NCBI RefSeq assembly: GCF_014764365.1
Contig: NZ_CP061718.1
Span: forward strand, 1,674,001-1,738,000
Reading direction: 5' to 3'
Length of the DNA stretch: 64,000 nucleotides
Source of the DNA: Roseococcus microcysteis
GTDB taxonomy: Bacteria > Pseudomonadota > Alphaproteobacteria > Acetobacterales > Acetobacteraceae
The number at the start of each line of letters is the position of its first letter. Position 1 is the stretch's first letter. Position numbers and translations under genes: made by a program. The notes beneath the pieces are model-generated. The model had not been told where the DNA came from. It did no database searches and was given only the letters and a program-made list of their open reading frames with translations. Shown piece after piece: positions 13,717 through 55,644 of this stretch.

Positions 13717-15054
13717 ATGGTCGCAACCCGCGCGCTCGACCTCGTGGAGGGCGATGACCCGCTGCCCGAATCCGCCGATGTGGTGGTCATCGGCGCCGGC
13801 ATCATCGGCGTTTCGGCCGCCTGGCATTTGGCCAAGGCCGGGCATTCGGTGGCCCTGCTGGAAAAGGGCGTGGTGGCCGGCGAGCAATCCAGCCGCAACT
13901 GGGGCTGGTGCCGCACCATGAATCGCGACGAGCGGGAAATCCCGCTCATGCAGCACAGCCAGTCGCTCTGGGACACGCTGCCCGGCGAGATCGGCGCGGA
14001 GATGGGCTTTCGGCGCGCGGGCCTCGTCTATGTCACCAAGGACCCGGCGCAGCTCGCGTCCTGGGAGGCCTGGCTGGACATGGCGCGGCCCTACCAGATG
14101 GGCGCGCGCATGATTGATGCCGAGGAGGCGCGACGCCTCGCCCCCTGCCCCGGCGAGGACTGGGTGGGCGGCGTCGTCTCCCCACGCGATGGCCGGGCGG
14201 AACCGGCGCTGGCCGCCCCCGCTTTGGCCCGCGCCGCCCGCGCCCGCGGCGCGACGCTGCACCAGAACTGCGCGGTGCGGGGCCTGGACACCACGGGCGG
14301 GCGCATCAGCGGTGTCTTCACCGAGAAGGGCTTCATCCGCACCCAGGCCGTGGTGCTGGCGGCGGGCGCCTGGGCATCCATGTTCCTGCGGCGGCATGGC
14401 GTGGACATGCCCCAATCCTCGGTCCACTCGACCATCTTCGCCACCACGCCCGGGCCGCGCGTCAGCGAGGGGCCGATCTACACGCCCGAGGTCATCCTCA
14501 CCCCGCTGCTCGATGGTGGGTATCTCGTGGCGGCCAAGGCGCGCGGGCGGCTGGAACTCACGCCAGCCGGCATCCGCTACGCCCGCCAATTCCTGCCCAG
14601 CCTGCGGAAGAACTGGAAGCTGGTGGAGCTGCGCTTCGGCCGCTCCTTCTTCGAGGGGCCGGACGCCTGGCATGGCAAGTGGTCCTTCGACCAACCCACC
14701 GTCTTCGAGCGGATGCGCGTGCTGGAGGCCAAGCCCAAGGCGAGCATCGTGCAGCCGGCGCTGGACGCCATCGCCGCCGCCTTCCCGCAACTGTCCGGGC
14801 TCAAGCCCGCGCGGCTCTGGGCGGGCTGGATCGATTCGACGCCCGATGCGGTGCCGGTCATCTCCCCCGTGGCATCCCTGCCCGGGATGGTCGTGGCGGC
14901 GGGCTTCAGCGGGCATGGTTTCGGCATCGGGCCGGGCGCGGGGCGGCTGGCCGCGGACCTCGCCACCGGCGCGCCGCCCGTGGTGGACCCCGCGGCCTTC
15001 GCGCTGTCGCGCTTCCATGACGGGTCGAAGTTGAGGGCGCCGGCGGGGATCTAG
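13717..15054 (+). CDS. FAD-dependent oxidoreductase of the D-amino-acid oxidase (DAO) family
   Basis: A 445-residue soluble flavoenzyme. The ADP-binding motif VVVIGAGIIGVSAAWHLAKAG lies at about 22-42. SSRNWGWCRTM follows at about 58-68, as in glycine/sarcosine-oxidase-like DAO proteins. The C-terminal flavin site has DSTPDAVPVI and GFSGHGFGIGPGAG. It oxidises an amine or amino acid, with an unknown substrate. It ends the cluster DUF429-like/PaiB-like/SDR/DAO. Its TAG stop is the first element of the 55-bp repeat array that follows. Confidence 0.92.
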   Translation: MVATRALDLVEGDDPLPESADVVVIGAGIIGVSAAWHLAKAGHSVALLEKGVVAGEQSSRNWGWCRTMNRDEREIPLMQHSQSLWDTLPGEIGAEMGFRRAGLVYVTKDPAQLASWEAWLDMARPYQMGARMIDAEEARRLAPCPGEDWVGGVVSPRDGRAEPALAAPALARAARARGATLHQNCAVRGLDTTGGRISGVFTEKGFIRTQAVVLAAGAWASMFLRRHGVDMPQSSVHSTIFATTPGPRVSEGPIYTPEVILTPLLDGGYLVAAKARGRLELTPAGIRYARQFLPSLRKNWKLVELRFGRSFFEGPDAWHGKWSFDQPTVFERMRVLEAKPKASIVQPALDAIAAAFPQLSGLKPARLWAGWIDSTPDAVPVISPVASLPGMVVAAGFSGHGFGIGPGAGRLAADLATGAPPVVDPAAFALSRFHDGSKLRAPAGI

Positions 15055-15164
15055 CGTCTGATCGTCTTTGGCGGAATCGCCAAAGGCGTGAATCAGCCGC
15101 GTGGCAAAGCGTCTGATCGTCTTTGGCGGAATCGCCGAAGGCGTGACTCAGCCGCTCAACAAAG
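15054..15164. repeat. Two tandem copies of a 55-bp hairpin repeat
   Basis: Copies start at 15054 and 15109. Each begins GCGTCTGATCG, has a stem CTTTGGCG/CGCCAAAG around a GAAT loop, and closes with GGCGTGAATCAGCC. An outer CTGAT/ATCAG helix with a TGA bulge can form in copy 1. Copy 2 changes CGCCAAAG to CGCCGAAG, keeping pairing through G-U. The array sits between two convergent genes, directly on the DAO stop codon. Confidence 0.9.
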
Positions 15165-15165
15165 C

Positions 15166-15447
15166 TCAGGCCCGGCGGAACATGCGCCGGATCGGCCGGC
15201 TGCGCCTGGCATACCAGGCCAGCGCCCGGCGCTCGCGCTCCTCGATGGCGGGAATGGCCTGGGGCCAGCGCGCGCGGATCTTGTCCACGCCGCGCGCCGC
15301 CCAGACATACTGGTCGCGCAGCATCCACACGGCGAGGGCCAGGAAGATCCAGCCCGGCATGATGGGCAGGATCAGCCCGATCACGCCCAGGAACAGGGCG
15401 CCGAAGCCCAGCAGCTTGCGGGTCAGGGAAGGGCGAAGCACGACCAT
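15166..15447 (-). CDS. Small membrane protein, YbaN/DUF454-like
   Basis: A 93-residue protein. The N-terminal half forms one or two membrane helices (LLGFGALFLGVIGLILP, then MPGWIFLALAVWML), and the PIMPGWIFL stretch resembles the PGxP turn of DUF454 proteins. The C-terminal half is strongly basic (RRALAWYARRSRPIRRMFRR) and probably cytoplasmic. Start 15447 was chosen because upstream in-frame sequence is low-complexity. Function is unknown. Its stop lies right beside the 55-bp repeat array. Confidence 0.7.
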   Translation of the reverse strand: MVVLRPSLTRKLLGFGALFLGVIGLILPIMPGWIFLALAVWMLRDQYVWAARGVDKIRARWPQAIPAIEERERRALAWYARRSRPIRRMFRRA

Positions 15448-37119: not shown

Positions 37120-38520
37120 ATGGCGCAGGGCTTCCCACGCAGCGCGCCGCCACGGCTGCTGCAATCGGCCGCCTTCCGCATCGCCCTGCTCTTCATGGGC
37201 ACCTTCTCCGCCGCCGCCTGGCTGCTGGTGGCGGTGCTGTGGTGGGCGACGGCGGGCGCGCTCGACCGGCAGACCATCGCCGCCATCCGCACCGACGCGG
37301 CGGCCCTCGCCGAACGCCACCGCGAGGAAGGGCTGCACGGGCTGATCGAGGCCATCGAGGAACGCCTCGCCCTCGATGCCGCGGCGGAGACGCTCTACCT
37401 CCTGCTGGACGATGAGGGCATCAAGCTCGCGGGCAACCTGGAACGCTGGCCCACCGCCATCGGCGAGGAAGGCCTGTGGTTCCGCACCCGCTTCGACCAG
37501 GATGGCGTGATCTCAGAGGCGCGGGTCCATCGGCGTGACCTGCCCGGGCTGCGCCTGCTGGTGGGCCGCGACGAGAGCGAGCGCGTGCAGCTGCGCCTGC
37601 TGCTGACCGAGGGCGTGGCGTGGTCGCTGGGGGGGATGTTCCTCTTCGCGTTGCTGGGCGCGAACATCGTCCGCCGCTCCCTGCAGAACCGGATGCGGCC
37701 GGCGGTGGTGACGGCGCTGGGCATCGCGGGGGGCGACCTGTCGCGCCGCGTGCCGCTTTCGGACCATGGCGACGAGTTCGACCGCCTGGCCTCCACCATG
37801 AACGACATGCTGGACCGAATCGCCGCCCTCATGGCCGGGGTCCGGAGCGTCTCCGACGCCATCGCGCATGACCTGCGCACCCCCATCGCCCGCGCGCGCG
37901 GCAAGCTGGAGGAAAGCCTCGCCACCGCCCGCACCGAGGAGGATTGGCGGGCCGCTGTCGAGCAGGGCATCCAGGACCTCGACAACATCAGCCGCGTCTT
38001 CCAGGCCCTGCTGCGGATCGCGGAGGCCGAGGCCGGCGCCCGCCGCGCCGCCTTCGCGCCCATGGACCTGCCCGAGGTGCTGCGCGACGCCGCCGAGTTC
38101 TACGAGGTGATGGCCGAGGCGCGCGACCAGCGGCTGGAAACCGCCCTGCCCGAGCATCTGGTGATGGTGGGTGACCGCGACCTGCTGCTCCAGGCCGTGG
38201 CGAACCTGCTGGACAACGCCATCAAGTTCACGCCACCGGGCGGGGTGGTGCGCCTGGCCGCGCGGCAGGAGGAGGGCGGCATCGAGGTGGCCGTGAGCGA
38301 CACGGGGCCGGGCCTGCCGCCCGAGGAACGGGCACGCGCCACAGACCGCTTCTTCCGCGCCGATGCCTCGCGCAACACGCCGGGCTCGGGCCTCGGCCTC
38401 TCGCTGGTGCGGGCGGTGGCGCAGTTGCATGGCGGCGAGGTGCTGCTGGCAGACGCGCGGCCGGGAGTGGCACCGCCCGGGCTGCGGGTCAGCCTGCGCC
38501 TGTCCGACAGCCTGGGGTGA
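37120..38520 (+). CDS. Membrane sensor histidine kinase
   Basis: A roughly 466-residue kinase with membrane helices at about 18-46 and 166-187, a periplasmic sensor of about 120 residues, a HAMP linker, an H-box SDAIAHDLRTPIAR (His250), and an ATPase domain with N-box NLLDNAIKFTP, G1 SDTGPGLPP and G2 GSGLGLSL. A TTG at 37090, closer to the regulator stop, is an alternative start. It is the cognate kinase of the upstream regulator; the type is similar to QseC/TctE-like kinases. The signal is unknown. Confidence 0.92.
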   Translation: MAQGFPRSAPPRLLQSAAFRIALLFMGTFSAAAWLLVAVLWWATAGALDRQTIAAIRTDAAALAERHREEGLHGLIEAIEERLALDAAAETLYLLLDDEGIKLAGNLERWPTAIGEEGLWFRTRFDQDGVISEARVHRRDLPGLRLLVGRDESERVQLRLLLTEGVAWSLGGMFLFALLGANIVRRSLQNRMRPAVVTALGIAGGDLSRRVPLSDHGDEFDRLASTMNDMLDRIAALMAGVRSVSDAIAHDLRTPIARARGKLEESLATARTEEDWRAAVEQGIQDLDNISRVFQALLRIAEAEAGARRAAFAPMDLPEVLRDAAEFYEVMAEARDQRLETALPEHLVMVGDRDLLLQAVANLLDNAIKFTPPGGVVRLAARQEEGGIEVAVSDTGPGLPPEERARATDRFFRADASRNTPGSGLGLSLVRAVAQLHGGEVLLADARPGVAPPGLRVSLRLSDSLG

Positions 38521-38563
38521 TGCGGGGTTGCCAGCCCCGCCCGGCCGGGCAAGCCTGACGCCC

Positions 38564-39304
38564 ATGCGGGTCGCGATCCTCACCGATATCCACGCCAATC
38601 TGGAGGCGCTGGAGGCCTGCCTCGCCGATGCGCGCGCGGCGGGGGCGGAGCGCCTCGTCTTCCTGGGTGATTTGGTGGGCTATGGCGCCGACCCCTGGGA
38701 GGTGGTGGCGCGCGCGCGCATCCTGCAATCCGAGGGCGCGGTGGTGCTGCGCGGCAACCATGACGAGGCGGCGAGCTTCGGGCCGCGGGGCTTCTCCACC
38801 CTGGCCGCCGCCGCCATGCGCTGGACCATGGAGCGCCTGTCGCCGGAGGCACGGGAATGGCTGGCCGGGCTGCCGCTGACCCATGCGGAGGGGGAGGTCC
38901 TCTTCACCCATGCCGATGCCTCGGCCCCGGGCGAATGGCGATACGTCACCGATTCGCGCAGCGCGCGGCGCAGCCTGCTGGCCACGCCCGCCTGGCTGAC
39001 ACTGTGCGGCCACACCCATGTGCCGGCCCTGTGGCGGCTGTCGGGGGCGGAGCATGTGGCGCCGGTGCCCTTCGAGGAGGACCGGCCCCTCGCCCTCGAT
39101 GCCGCGCATCGCTGGCTGGCGGTGGTGGGCGCCGTGGGCCAGCCGCGCAACGGCCAGGCGGAGGCGTGCTACGCGCTGCTCGACCCCGGCGCGCGCCTCA
39201 TCACCCAGCGGCGCGTGGCCTATGACGTGGCGCGCGCGGCCGACAAGATCCGCGCGGCCGGCCTGCCGGAATTGCTGGCCGAACGGCTTTTCGTGGGCGT
39301 GTAG
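38564..39304 (+). CDS. Calcineurin-like metallophosphoesterase
   Basis: A 246-residue phosphoesterase with the dimetal motifs in order: RVAILTDIHANLEAL, LGDLVGYGADP, LRGNHDEAA, and CGHTHVPALW. This pattern and length match the YfcE/DUF2437-like bacterial group that hydrolyses phosphodiesters or protein phosphates. Substrate unknown. It follows the kinase gene by 43 bp, so it may be the third member of that operon. Its stop is fused to the 55-bp repeat array. Confidence 0.9.
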   Translation: MRVAILTDIHANLEALEACLADARAAGAERLVFLGDLVGYGADPWEVVARARILQSEGAVVLRGNHDEAASFGPRGFSTLAAAAMRWTMERLSPEAREWLAGLPLTHAEGEVLFTHADASAPGEWRYVTDSRSARRSLLATPAWLTLCGHTHVPALWRLSGAEHVAPVPFEEDRPLALDAAHRWLAVVGAVGQPRNGQAEACYALLDPGARLITQRRVAYDVARAADKIRAAGLPELLAERLFVGV

Positions 39305-39463
39305 CGTCTGATCGCCTTCGGTACTCACCGAAGGCGTGAATCGGTCGCGCGGCGTGTAGCGTCTGATCGCCTTCGGTGCTCACCGAAGGCGTGAATCGGC
39401 CGCGCGGCGTATGGCGTCTGATCGCCTTCGGTGCTCACCGAAGGCGTGAGTCAGCCGCGCACG
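39304..39463. repeat. Three tandem copies of the 55-bp hairpin repeat
   Basis: Copies start at 39304, 39359 and 39414. Each begins GCGTCTGATCG and carries the stem GCCTTCGGTG/CACCGAAGGC (GTA in place of GTG in copy 1) followed by GTGAATCGG or GTGAGTCAG. It is the same family as the array at 15054, with identical period but a different stem sequence. It sits between a plus-strand stop and a minus-strand stop. Confidence 0.9.
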
Positions 39464-39466
39464 GCT

Positions 39467-39715
39467 TCAGAGCGGGCGCTGCGCGCGTTCCATCAGGCGG
39501 GAGAAGAAGCCGGGCTTCTTGGCCGGCAGCGCCGCCTCGGTGCGCGCCGCCTTCGCGGCTTCGGCGGCCTCGGCCTTGGCGCGGCGTTCCTTGTCGCGCA
39601 TCCAGGCCTCCAGCGTCATGCCGGCCTTCGCCGCGCGCTTCGCCTCATAGGCGCGCTGGCCGGGCGTGAGAGAGGCCAGGCCCTGCGTCTCACGCGTCAC
39701 CTTGATCGAGTCCAT
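39467..39715 (-). CDS. Small charged hypothetical protein
   Basis: An 82-residue cytoplasmic protein, helical and Ala/Lys/Glu-rich (TLEAWMRDKERRAKAEAAEA), ending KKPGFFSRLMERAQRPL. No domain recognised. An alternative start MGSSIHG lies 10 codons upstream (39745). It is divergent from the DUF1491 gene and its stop abuts the 55-bp repeat array. Confidence 0.6.
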   Translation of the reverse strand: MDSIKVTRETQGLASLTPGQRAYEAKRAAKAGMTLEAWMRDKERRAKAEAAEAAKAARTEAALPAKKPGFFSRLMERAQRPL

Positions 39716-39800
39716 GCCCGTGGGTCCATGTATGGAGGAGCCCATTATGTGGACGGGCGCGGGGCTTGCCGCAAGCGGGGTGGCGCGCCACACAGGCCGC

Positions 39801-40133
39801 ATGGACGCGAAGGTCAAGGCGCATATCTGGGTCTCGATGGCGGTGCGGATGTCGGACATGGCCGGCCGCGGCGCCGCCGTGCTGCGCAAGGGCGACCCGG
39901 ATTCGGGCGGCATCCTCTGCGTGCTGCGGGGCCGCGAGGGGCAGGTGGTCCTGGCCCAGGCGCGCGATGCCGAGGGCCGCCCCGCCTGGCTGCGCGGCAC
40001 GGGCGACGCCCCCGTGGCCGAGGACACCGCCGACGCCTATGTGGCGCGCCAGGTGAAGCGCGACCCCGACCTCTGGGTGGTCGAGTTCGACGCGCCCGAC
40101 CTGCTGCCGCCCTTCGAGGCGCGGCTGATCTGA
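39801..40133 (+). CDS. DUF1491 family protein
   Basis: A 110-residue protein. MDAKVKAHIWVSMAVRMSDM, AVLRKGDPDSGGILCVLRG, the central ARDAEGRPAWLRGTG and the terminal DPDLWVVEFDAPDLLPPFEARLI match DUF1491, a short alphaproteobacterial family of unknown function, typically 105-115 residues long. An upstream ATG at 39747 would add 18 residues without family support. Confidence 0.82.
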   Translation: MDAKVKAHIWVSMAVRMSDMAGRGAAVLRKGDPDSGGILCVLRGREGQVVLAQARDAEGRPAWLRGTGDAPVAEDTADAYVARQVKRDPDLWVVEFDAPDLLPPFEARLI

Positions 40134-40146
40134 CCGCCCCGCCGCC

Positions 40147-40614
40147 TCAGCGCGGCAGGATTTCCGAAATCCGCAGCTGCGCCGGCACGCGGCTGCCGCG
40201 GTCATAATGGCCGATCCAGATGTCGTATTGGCCGGACATGGGATTGTTGAAGATGAGGCCCGGGTCGGTGCCCCGGAAATCGTCATTGCAGGCCCAGCGG
40301 CCATTGGGCAGGTTCACCACCAGCGTCACATCGGCGCGCGAGGTGGCCGAGATATAGAGCGGCAGCCCCTGCCCCGCGCGGTAGTTCAGCCGCACATCCG
40401 GTGCGTCGGCGATGGTGCCCACGCATTGCGACCCACCCAGACGTTCAGCCGGGACATTGCCACCGGCGGTGACGTTCACCACCACAGGGTCCGGCGCGAA
40501 ATTCGCGCTGAGGTTGAGCGTACCGAAAGAGGGCGGGCGGCTGTAGTTCTGCGCGACGACGGGCCCCACCGTCACGGAGAGGAGGGTGGCTGCGGCAAGA
40601 AGCCTGGCGGACAT
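40147..40614 (-). CDS. Secreted protein with PPC-like beta domain (copy 2 of a tandem pair)
   Basis: A 155-residue exported protein with a signal peptide (MSARLLAAATLLSVTVGPVVAQ). The C-terminal half, with LYISATSRADVTLVVNLPNG and SGQYDIWIGHYDRG, has the strand pattern of bacterial pre-peptidase C-terminal-like domains, which bind other proteins or substrates. Two Cys (residues 64 and 109) could form a disulfide. Its paralogue lies 134 bp upstream in the same direction. Function unknown. Confidence 0.75.
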   Translation of the reverse strand: MSARLLAAATLLSVTVGPVVAQNYSRPPSFGTLNLSANFAPDPVVVNVTAGGNVPAERLGGSQCVGTIADAPDVRLNYRAGQGLPLYISATSRADVTLVVNLPNGRWACNDDFRGTDPGLIFNNPMSGQYDIWIGHYDRGSRVPAQLRISEILPR

Positions 40615-55595: not shown

Positions 55596-55644
55596 GCGTC
55601 CGATCGCCCCGGGCCCCGGGCCTGGGGCGTGAAGCGGCCGCGCG
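55596..55644. repeat. Single copy of the hairpin repeat with a fully different stem
   Basis: It begins GCGTCCGATCGCC and ends GGCGTGAAGCGGCCGCGCG, the same flanks as the units at 39304. The stem has changed to CGCCCCGGGCC/GGCCTGGGGCG, 11 pairs with one G-U, and the loop is 3 nt. It lies in the 54-bp gap between the carbamoylase stop and the MFS start. Confidence 0.8.

Follow-up and report, generated by a model that had tools for sequence, protein, structure and literature searches.

A probable family of REP-like mobile palindromes beside stop codons in Roseococcus and some other Acetobacteraceae

Repeat arrays in the window

The window is a 64-kb stretch of the Roseococcus microcysteis genome, and the gene positions given here, in the window and elsewhere, come from our own codon-usage gene caller and not from annotation. 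In one convergent gene pair, a forward-strand gene for a calcineurin-like phosphoesterase (PF12850; 38564..39304) faces a reverse-strand gene of 82 amino acids (39467..39715) that has no Pfam match at an E-value of 0.001. Between them lie three forward-strand, head-to-tail copies of a short repeat (39304..39348, 39359..39403 and 39414..39458). The first G of copy 1 completes the TAG stop codon (39302-39304) of the phosphoesterase gene, so that this TAG is common to gene and repeat, and the stop of the facing gene is found 9 nt past the end of copy 3. Two further forward-strand copies (15054..15100 and 15109..15155) follow a forward-strand gene for an FAD-dependent oxidoreductase (PF01266; 13717..15054), whose TAG stop is likewise completed by the first G of the first copy; the convergent gene on the other side (15166..15447, reverse strand) codes for 93 amino acids and has a weak DUF454 match under the cut-off. 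The sixth and last copy of the window, with GCGTCCGATC, is single (55596..55641, forward strand) and is oriented against both flanking genes. Convergent pairs account for 10 of the 66 adjacent gene pairs of the window, and two of them hold the arrays at 15054 and 39304.

The sequence-only reading had described the three copies at 39304 as an array of the 15054-type repeat, with the same 55-bp period, the same flanks, a convergent setting and a stem whose letters had changed with pairing kept. The array and its convergent setting were confirmed, and Tandem Repeats Finder returned the period for both arrays (39296-39460, period 55, 3.0 copies, score 288; 15053-15165, period 55, 2.1 copies). The GTGAATC flank is present in the array at 39304, but copy 3 reads GTGAGTC. 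In the same way, the 8-bp stem CTTCGGTG/CACCGAAG is found in copies 2 and 3, while copy 1 reads CTTCGGTA...TCACCGAAG and has lost the last stem pair. Pairing is kept through two-sided changes at two pairs between the arrays (T-A to C-G and C-G to T-A), one of which has a T-G intermediate in the 15109 copy, copy 2 of the first array. The stem had also been drawn too short: our folding model has 18 pairs, a mismatch and a TGA bulge.

Size of the family

The genome was searched as a single contig of 4,208,010 bases. It contains 33 exact occurrences of the tag GCGTCTGATCG, vs 0 of a reversed control; with up to two mismatches the tag occurs in the window at chance level (35 matches vs a shuffled mean of 37.4), thus only the exact tag or the whole unit was counted. 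An alignment of 39 copies from 28 places was obtained from 29 of the 33 tag matches and 10 neighbours or variants, the remaining four tag matches (L003, L004 at 1493, L006 and L019) having failed the flank filter. These copies were recruited by their flanks with up to two and up to three mismatches, which fixes most of the lower stem and leaves the upper stem free. A covariance model built from the alignment and run on the same genome gave 150 matches; three on the mirror strand, two short ones and one with an E-value of 0.004 were dropped and 144 were accepted. The family contains at least 144 accepted copies in at least 101 places, all with E <= 5.7e-5, a count that may be too low, as 150 of 9661 first-look candidates were scored.

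The 101 places comprise 74 single copies, 16 pairs, 7 triples, 3 groups of four and one of five. All the 27 multi-copy places are arranged head-to-tail, and no opposite-facing neighbour was found within 300 nt among the accepted arrays. Core length is 42-47 nt in 137 of the 144 copies, slightly above the 20-40 quoted for REPs. Four arrays are densely clustered at 2667-2673 kb amid genes that look ordinary by eye. Another dispersed repeat, distinct from this one and about 76 nt long, was also observed (L172:3245-3320, corresponding to 2882653-2882728 of this genome); it has many matches of about 77-92% in the sister genomes G003 and G010, some of them tandem with a period of about 61.

Fold of the unit

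In general form, a unit reads TAG-CG(T/C)C(T/C)GATC, then a variable stem with a short loop, then GTGAATC(A/G)G(C/T)CGC, after which comes a short tail; units of the array at 39304 repeat every 55 bp, and those of other arrays every 50-60 bp or so. In the lower stem GCG pairs with CGC and, after a pyrimidine-pyrimidine mismatch, CYGAT pairs with ATCRG; above it there are a TGA bulge on the 3' side, a C-G pair, the variable upper stem and a loop of about four. In a set of 126 distinct cores, 121 have two pyrimidines at the mismatch (T.C 87, C.T 17, C.C 15, T.T 2) and 114 have TGA as the bulge. When the six window copies were each compared with 200 dinucleotide shuffles, between 0 and 9 of the shuffles folded equally well. 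A subfamily of this genome (e.g. 353425, 3221375 and 3967123) carries a symmetric purine GGA/GGA internal loop in the upper stem, whose columns among the 126 cores contain G.A in 29 (u5), G.G in 19 (u6) and A.G in 33 (u7).

Covariation and folding strand

A covariation test on the 39 aligned copies gave a strong signal, with 0 of 500 shuffles reaching the observed value on any measure. Standard pairs fill 97.3% of 701 cells (shuffled mean 89.1%), and two-sided changes occur in 56 cells, vs 14.5 in shuffles; nine pairs have such a change, seven of them in the upper helix. In the control with slid pairing, 27-44% of positions are paired. Similar data were obtained from other species, where at least 118 stretches recruited by exact flanks yielded 141 copies with 115 distinct middles: the 805 cells of the seven outer pairs hold 639 Watson-Crick, 51 G-T, 11 A-C and 104 other combinations, vs shuffled means of 458, 77, 53 and 218, respectively. 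Recruitment with GATC[GC]...[GC]GTGAATC collected 356 distinct sequences, vs 0 for the reversed control, and the five outer lower-stem positions are all paired in 314 of them, part of this DNA having been fetched by a pattern that itself fixes the lower stem. Stems are not identical genome-wide, as recent spread with no covariation had been expected to leave them; they are diverse and yet paired, so that a constraint on structure exists for the family as a whole.

Mispairs in the stems of the 126 cores are more often G-T than A-C (75 vs 19; 23:8 in the lower and 52:11 in the upper stem), bearing in mind that copies are not independent and that these cores were found with a model of the same strand. 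In other species the ratio is 51:11, with 32 of the 51 G-T in one column, and becomes 19:11 without that column. These ratios suggest that it is the TAG-CGTC strand that folds, as RNA or single-stranded DNA. A cruciform involves the two strands of the DNA, and the predominance of G-T over A-C speaks more for folding of the sense strand.

Genomic place and stop codons

The genes on either side are convergent at 59 of the 101 arrays, unidirectional at 35 and divergent at 7; where they are unidirectional, the array is oriented along the genes in 24 cases and against them in 11 (binomial P 0.04). A co-directional gene is found upstream of 83 arrays. The first base of the core is the last base of this gene in 41 of the 83, with TAG as the stop codon in 40 cases and TGA in one, while TAG accounts for 67 of 352 stops among the other genes examined; in 61 of the 83 the core starts 0-15 nt from the stop.

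The dinucleotide TA precedes the core G in 52 of the 101 arrays, vs a TA frequency of 0.7%, and the base at position -3 is C in 47, G in 24, T in 18 and A in 12. TA is present in 40 of the 41 stop-abutting arrays, in 3 of the 42 other co-directional ones and in 9 of the 18 whose upstream gene has the opposite orientation. These last nine indicate that TA belongs to the element or to its target. Furthermore, among the 43 TA-starting arrays that follow a co-directional gene, the TAG is in the reading frame and ends the gene in 40 (P 3e-16 vs one third). Thus, TA(G) either comes with the element or is its target, and when a copy starting with TA follows a gene it nearly always supplies the stop codon.

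Distribution among genomes

Matches at E <= 0.01 were found in 29 of 60 genomes. All the 21 genomes of the genus Roseococcus are included, with from at least 2 to at least 93 matches each, together with 7 of the 15 other Acetobacteraceae, one of which (G035) has at least 89; outside the family, one of 24 genomes has one weak match. Genomes rich in the repeat include those of R. microcysteis, G003, G010 and G035, and poor ones G011, G016 and G018. The titles of 80 of the at least 118 flank-recruited stretches refer to Acetobacteraceae, its genera, or Rhodospirillales and Alphaproteobacteria bins. The repeat is restricted to one family among the genomes sampled, apart from the one weak outside match.

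A blastn search of the array (39298-39470) in plasmid and phage collections gave no match, and carriage on a plasmid or phage was rejected as an explanation. Three IMG/VR contigs filed as viral (L319, L320 and L321) hold the repeat pattern; L319 and L320, when aligned, match a gene neighbourhood on the R. microcysteis chromosome and may be misfiled.

Search for a mobilising enzyme and for known RNA signals

The Y1 transposase profile (PF01797), which represents the REP-associated transposases and is the only family searched for, has no match in the R. microcysteis genome; it is absent from 20 of the 21 genus genomes and also from G024, G027, G031 and G035, the last with at least 89 repeat matches. 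Mobility driven by a RAYT was rejected on this basis. The exception in the genus is G016, which has three Y1 transposase matches and at least 9 matches of the repeat. Eight Y1 loci hold one weak match of the covariance model (L086, 16 bits), which was not counted as evidence.

No terminator-like site was found in 38500-40200, and the tails of the 101 arrays contain no T run by composition. A search of the window in Rfam gave no match at gathering score, with two weak matches over the array far under the gathering scores; a known RNA family was rejected accordingly.

Comparison with known repeat families

The Roseococcus repeat is a short, high-copy palindrome that is intergenic and mostly downstream of coding regions, and as such it falls within the broad definition of REPs. 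Among the matches listed in open-licence literature, no earlier description of this family was found.

According to the available excerpts of Di Nocera et al. (2013; PMC3733652), CGTC-tagged REPs are short palindromes, mainly alphaproteobacterial and with no associated transposase, which are located near stop codons, in spaces between convergent or unidirectional genes; the paper leaves open by what means REPs lacking a dedicated transposase are spread. CGTC-tagged REPs have an unpaired CGTC at one end, a stem of 8-9 bp whose first two positions hold complementary AT, and an unpaired CCA-type tail; head-head dimers predominate, clusters are rare and head-tail arrangements negligible. The same excerpts state that CGTC repeats are missing in Acetobacteraceae. 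Compared with this written description, and not with the consensus figure of that paper, the Roseococcus repeat is similar in having CGTC near one end and a location near stops. It may also resemble them in having no dedicated transposase, PF01797 having no match in its genome. However, its CGTC is mostly inside the stem, where C8, G9 and C11 are in the commonest pair in 117, 118 and 119 of the 126 distinct cores, respectively. The fold is also different, with 18 pairs, a bulge and a GCG/CYGAT lower stem, and with neither an AT/AT start nor a CCA tail; finally, arrays are head-to-tail, without opposite-facing neighbours within 300 nt such as the head-head dimers that dominate in the CGTC group as described in those excerpts.

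In GTAG-tagged REPs, as reported in the same excerpts (PMC3733652), the TAG beside the hairpin is often the stop codon of the flanking gene. The Roseococcus hairpin, too, lies beside a TAG serving as stop, and it resembles these REPs and REPINs also in its high copy number. Conversely, unlike GTAG-tagged REPs with a RAYT, it lacks a regular GTAG tag, TA being present before the core G in only about half of the arrays, and R. microcysteis and all but one of the 20 other genus genomes have no Y1 transposase. The repeat lacks defining features of both the CGTC- and the GTAG-tagged superfamilies, and is best read as a new REP-like family.

The REP sequence of E. coli is not known to resemble that of the Roseococcus repeat. 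As to location, E. coli REPs can lie within 15 nt of a stop codon (Liang 2015, as cited in the excerpt of PMC12306157), and the Roseococcus repeat likewise follows directly after stops, so that by analogy an effect on the ribosome or on mRNA would be possible. Br-REP1 and Br-REP2 of Bradyrhizobium are described in the excerpt of PMC5082802 as alphaproteobacterial hairpin repeats of 3' UTRs, present also between convergent genes. The Roseococcus repeat shares their hairpin form, their position 3' of genes and between convergent genes, and their occurrence in Alphaproteobacteria, but the consensus sequences printed there for Br-REP1 and Br-REP2 differ from it by eye.

Turnover between sister species

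Sister species, which are about 90-95% identical in the matched stretches and include R. suduntuyensis DSM 19979 (G010) and R. thiosulfatophilus RB-3 (G003), were compared site by site. Site 39304 has three units in R. microcysteis, two in G010 and a single one, decayed, in G003, and site 15054 has two here, two in G003 and none in G010. Three, four and one units are found across species at 4014306, one, three and two at 3034755, and one vs four at 3593385. Site 2759248 has one unit here, none in L319 and an apparently inverted one in L320 (by eye). Most sister-species stretches are the best-scoring among the matches listed, which biases the comparison towards intact copies. In a less biased set of 10 arrays (two dense clusters and those of the window), chosen regardless of the state in G003 and G010, 19 of 20 comparisons were possible; by eye, the element is present in 12 of the 19, one of them decayed, and lacking in 7, and the unit number is the same in 6 of the 12 filled sister sites. 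Thus, sites turn over quickly, with gain, loss and change of array length between sister species.

Only 2759248 in L319 (GGGTTA^AGCC) looks like a clean empty site. No clean target-site duplication was found, and most empty sites differ by more than the element; 3695146 in L241, 4180766 in L295 and 1729596 in G010 resemble deletions that keep the GCG start. Runs of short repeats of the TTACCATC/TTACTATC type, or of their complement, were also noticed after the element, in G010 beside 2668968 (L402) and in R. microcysteis after 2401698.

Constraint on resident copies

Change at shared sites was followed in 15 of 54 comparisons, namely those with a single copy and equal length, from 14 sites (one site was used twice, with the same letters). 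Changes affect 19 of 540 paired positions, 12 of 158 unpaired ones and 60 of 900 flanking ones, so that stem positions change about half as often as unpaired and flanking ones. Single changes break a pair in 10 of 17 cases (0.59), vs 0.73 in a neutral simulation (95% range 0.53-0.91), and broken pairs are 10 vs 16.1 simulated (P 0.02). No compensated double change was found in these 15 comparisons (0.3 expected), and one double change broke a pair. From this small set, resident copies are under at most moderate constraint at the level of the site.

Compensated differences do occur at shared sites. Two pairs are involved in 2401698/L275, from a comparison in which the counts of the rows 836110/L214 and 1713304/L095, shifted by indels, were not used, and at 2671122 a T-A is replaced by G-C in both units of G010. 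At 2673322, different paired stems are found in three species, and the species have the rare lower stem CGGAT/ATCCG in common at 3065238, where the upper stem is wholly different and paired in G010 (L206). Some of these differences look like block replacement. Stem changes are few and 10 of 17 single changes are breaking, thus pairing seems to be kept mainly while copies spread or get replaced; the family-wide covariation is better explained by the making and replacement of copies than by selection on resident ones, a balance that a larger set could change. The sequence-only reading had taken compensatory change as an argument for selection on an RNA or a cruciform: the structure is indeed kept family-wide, but constraint at single sites is at most moderate, with no compensated double in the 15 comparisons, and a cruciform is disfavoured.

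Possible origin and meaning of the repeat

Taken with its observed fold, place and turnover, the family is likely to be a new one of REP-like mobile palindromes in Roseococcus and some other Acetobacteraceae, leaving hairpins at the 3' ends of mRNAs. New sites would be reached through an enzyme that copies the unit and requires its strand to be folded, and this requirement would keep pairing while letters drift. Arrays would grow and shrink through slippage or unequal recombination. Once resident, a unit would leave a stable hairpin immediately behind the stop codon, and this hairpin, as described for E. coli REPs (Liang 2015 via the excerpt of PMC12306157), could slow 3'-5' decay or ribosome release; we infer this putative role in RNA from place and orientation. 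Since presence and copy number vary between sister species, including the two named strains, movement, array change and the effect at stop codons are directly testable.

The same data may be read in terms of selection by the host, the hairpin being kept at each site to protect, end or tune the upstream mRNA, with compensation by selection at the site. The position at stop codons, the prevalence of G-T over A-C in the 126 cores and in other species, the lower rate of change in stems and the deficit of broken pairs all agree with such a role. However, 10 of 17 single changes break a pair and no compensated double was seen, the element is missing from sister species at 7 of 19 comparable sites, and the G-T excess of other species largely depends on one column; we regard this account as rather doubtful. 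It may be, though we hold this tentatively, that an orphan palindrome family without a known REP transposase is actively moving in Roseococcus, its stems being rewritten as paired blocks by an enzyme copying a folded single strand or by replication of one arm from the other. If so, covariation would record the copying mechanism and not selection on RNA. A related proposal dispenses with selection altogether: replication slips in the hairpin, where one arm serves as the template for the other, by quasi-palindrome correction or template switching, so that both sides of a stem change at once. The shared lower stem and replaced upper stem at 3065238 and the three paired stems at 2673322 would be expected from it. 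In addition, 216 cases of near-identical copies differing at two positions were found in 270 sequences selected to have 5 or more of the 7 upper pairs; both differences are on one pair in 13 of them, vs 4.2 expected, and 12 of the 13 are paired, an outcome that this selection favours. Arm copying across the lower stem, however, should erase the mismatch and the bulge, which persist in 121 and 114 of the 126 cores. The purine GGA/GGA internal loop, too, persists in a subfamily, and exchange with other copies can give the same block changes; for these reasons arm copying appears unlikely. In any case, even when covariation among paralogous hairpins is strong, it is not in itself proof that a functional RNA exists at every site.

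Ordinary intrinsic terminators, alike through common function, would also be GC-rich hairpins right after stops, and 59 of the 101 arrays lie between convergent genes. No T run follows the arrays, though, and a conserved bulge, mismatch, tag and tail in head-to-tail arrays would not be expected of terminators, which makes this explanation very improbable. A satellite-like tandem repeat spreading by local duplication only is hardly credible: it accounts for the 27 multi-copy places and for array lengths that vary between species, but 74 of the 101 places are single-copy and scattered through the genome. Local duplication fails against these data as a full account, and stays part of the explanation of the arrays.
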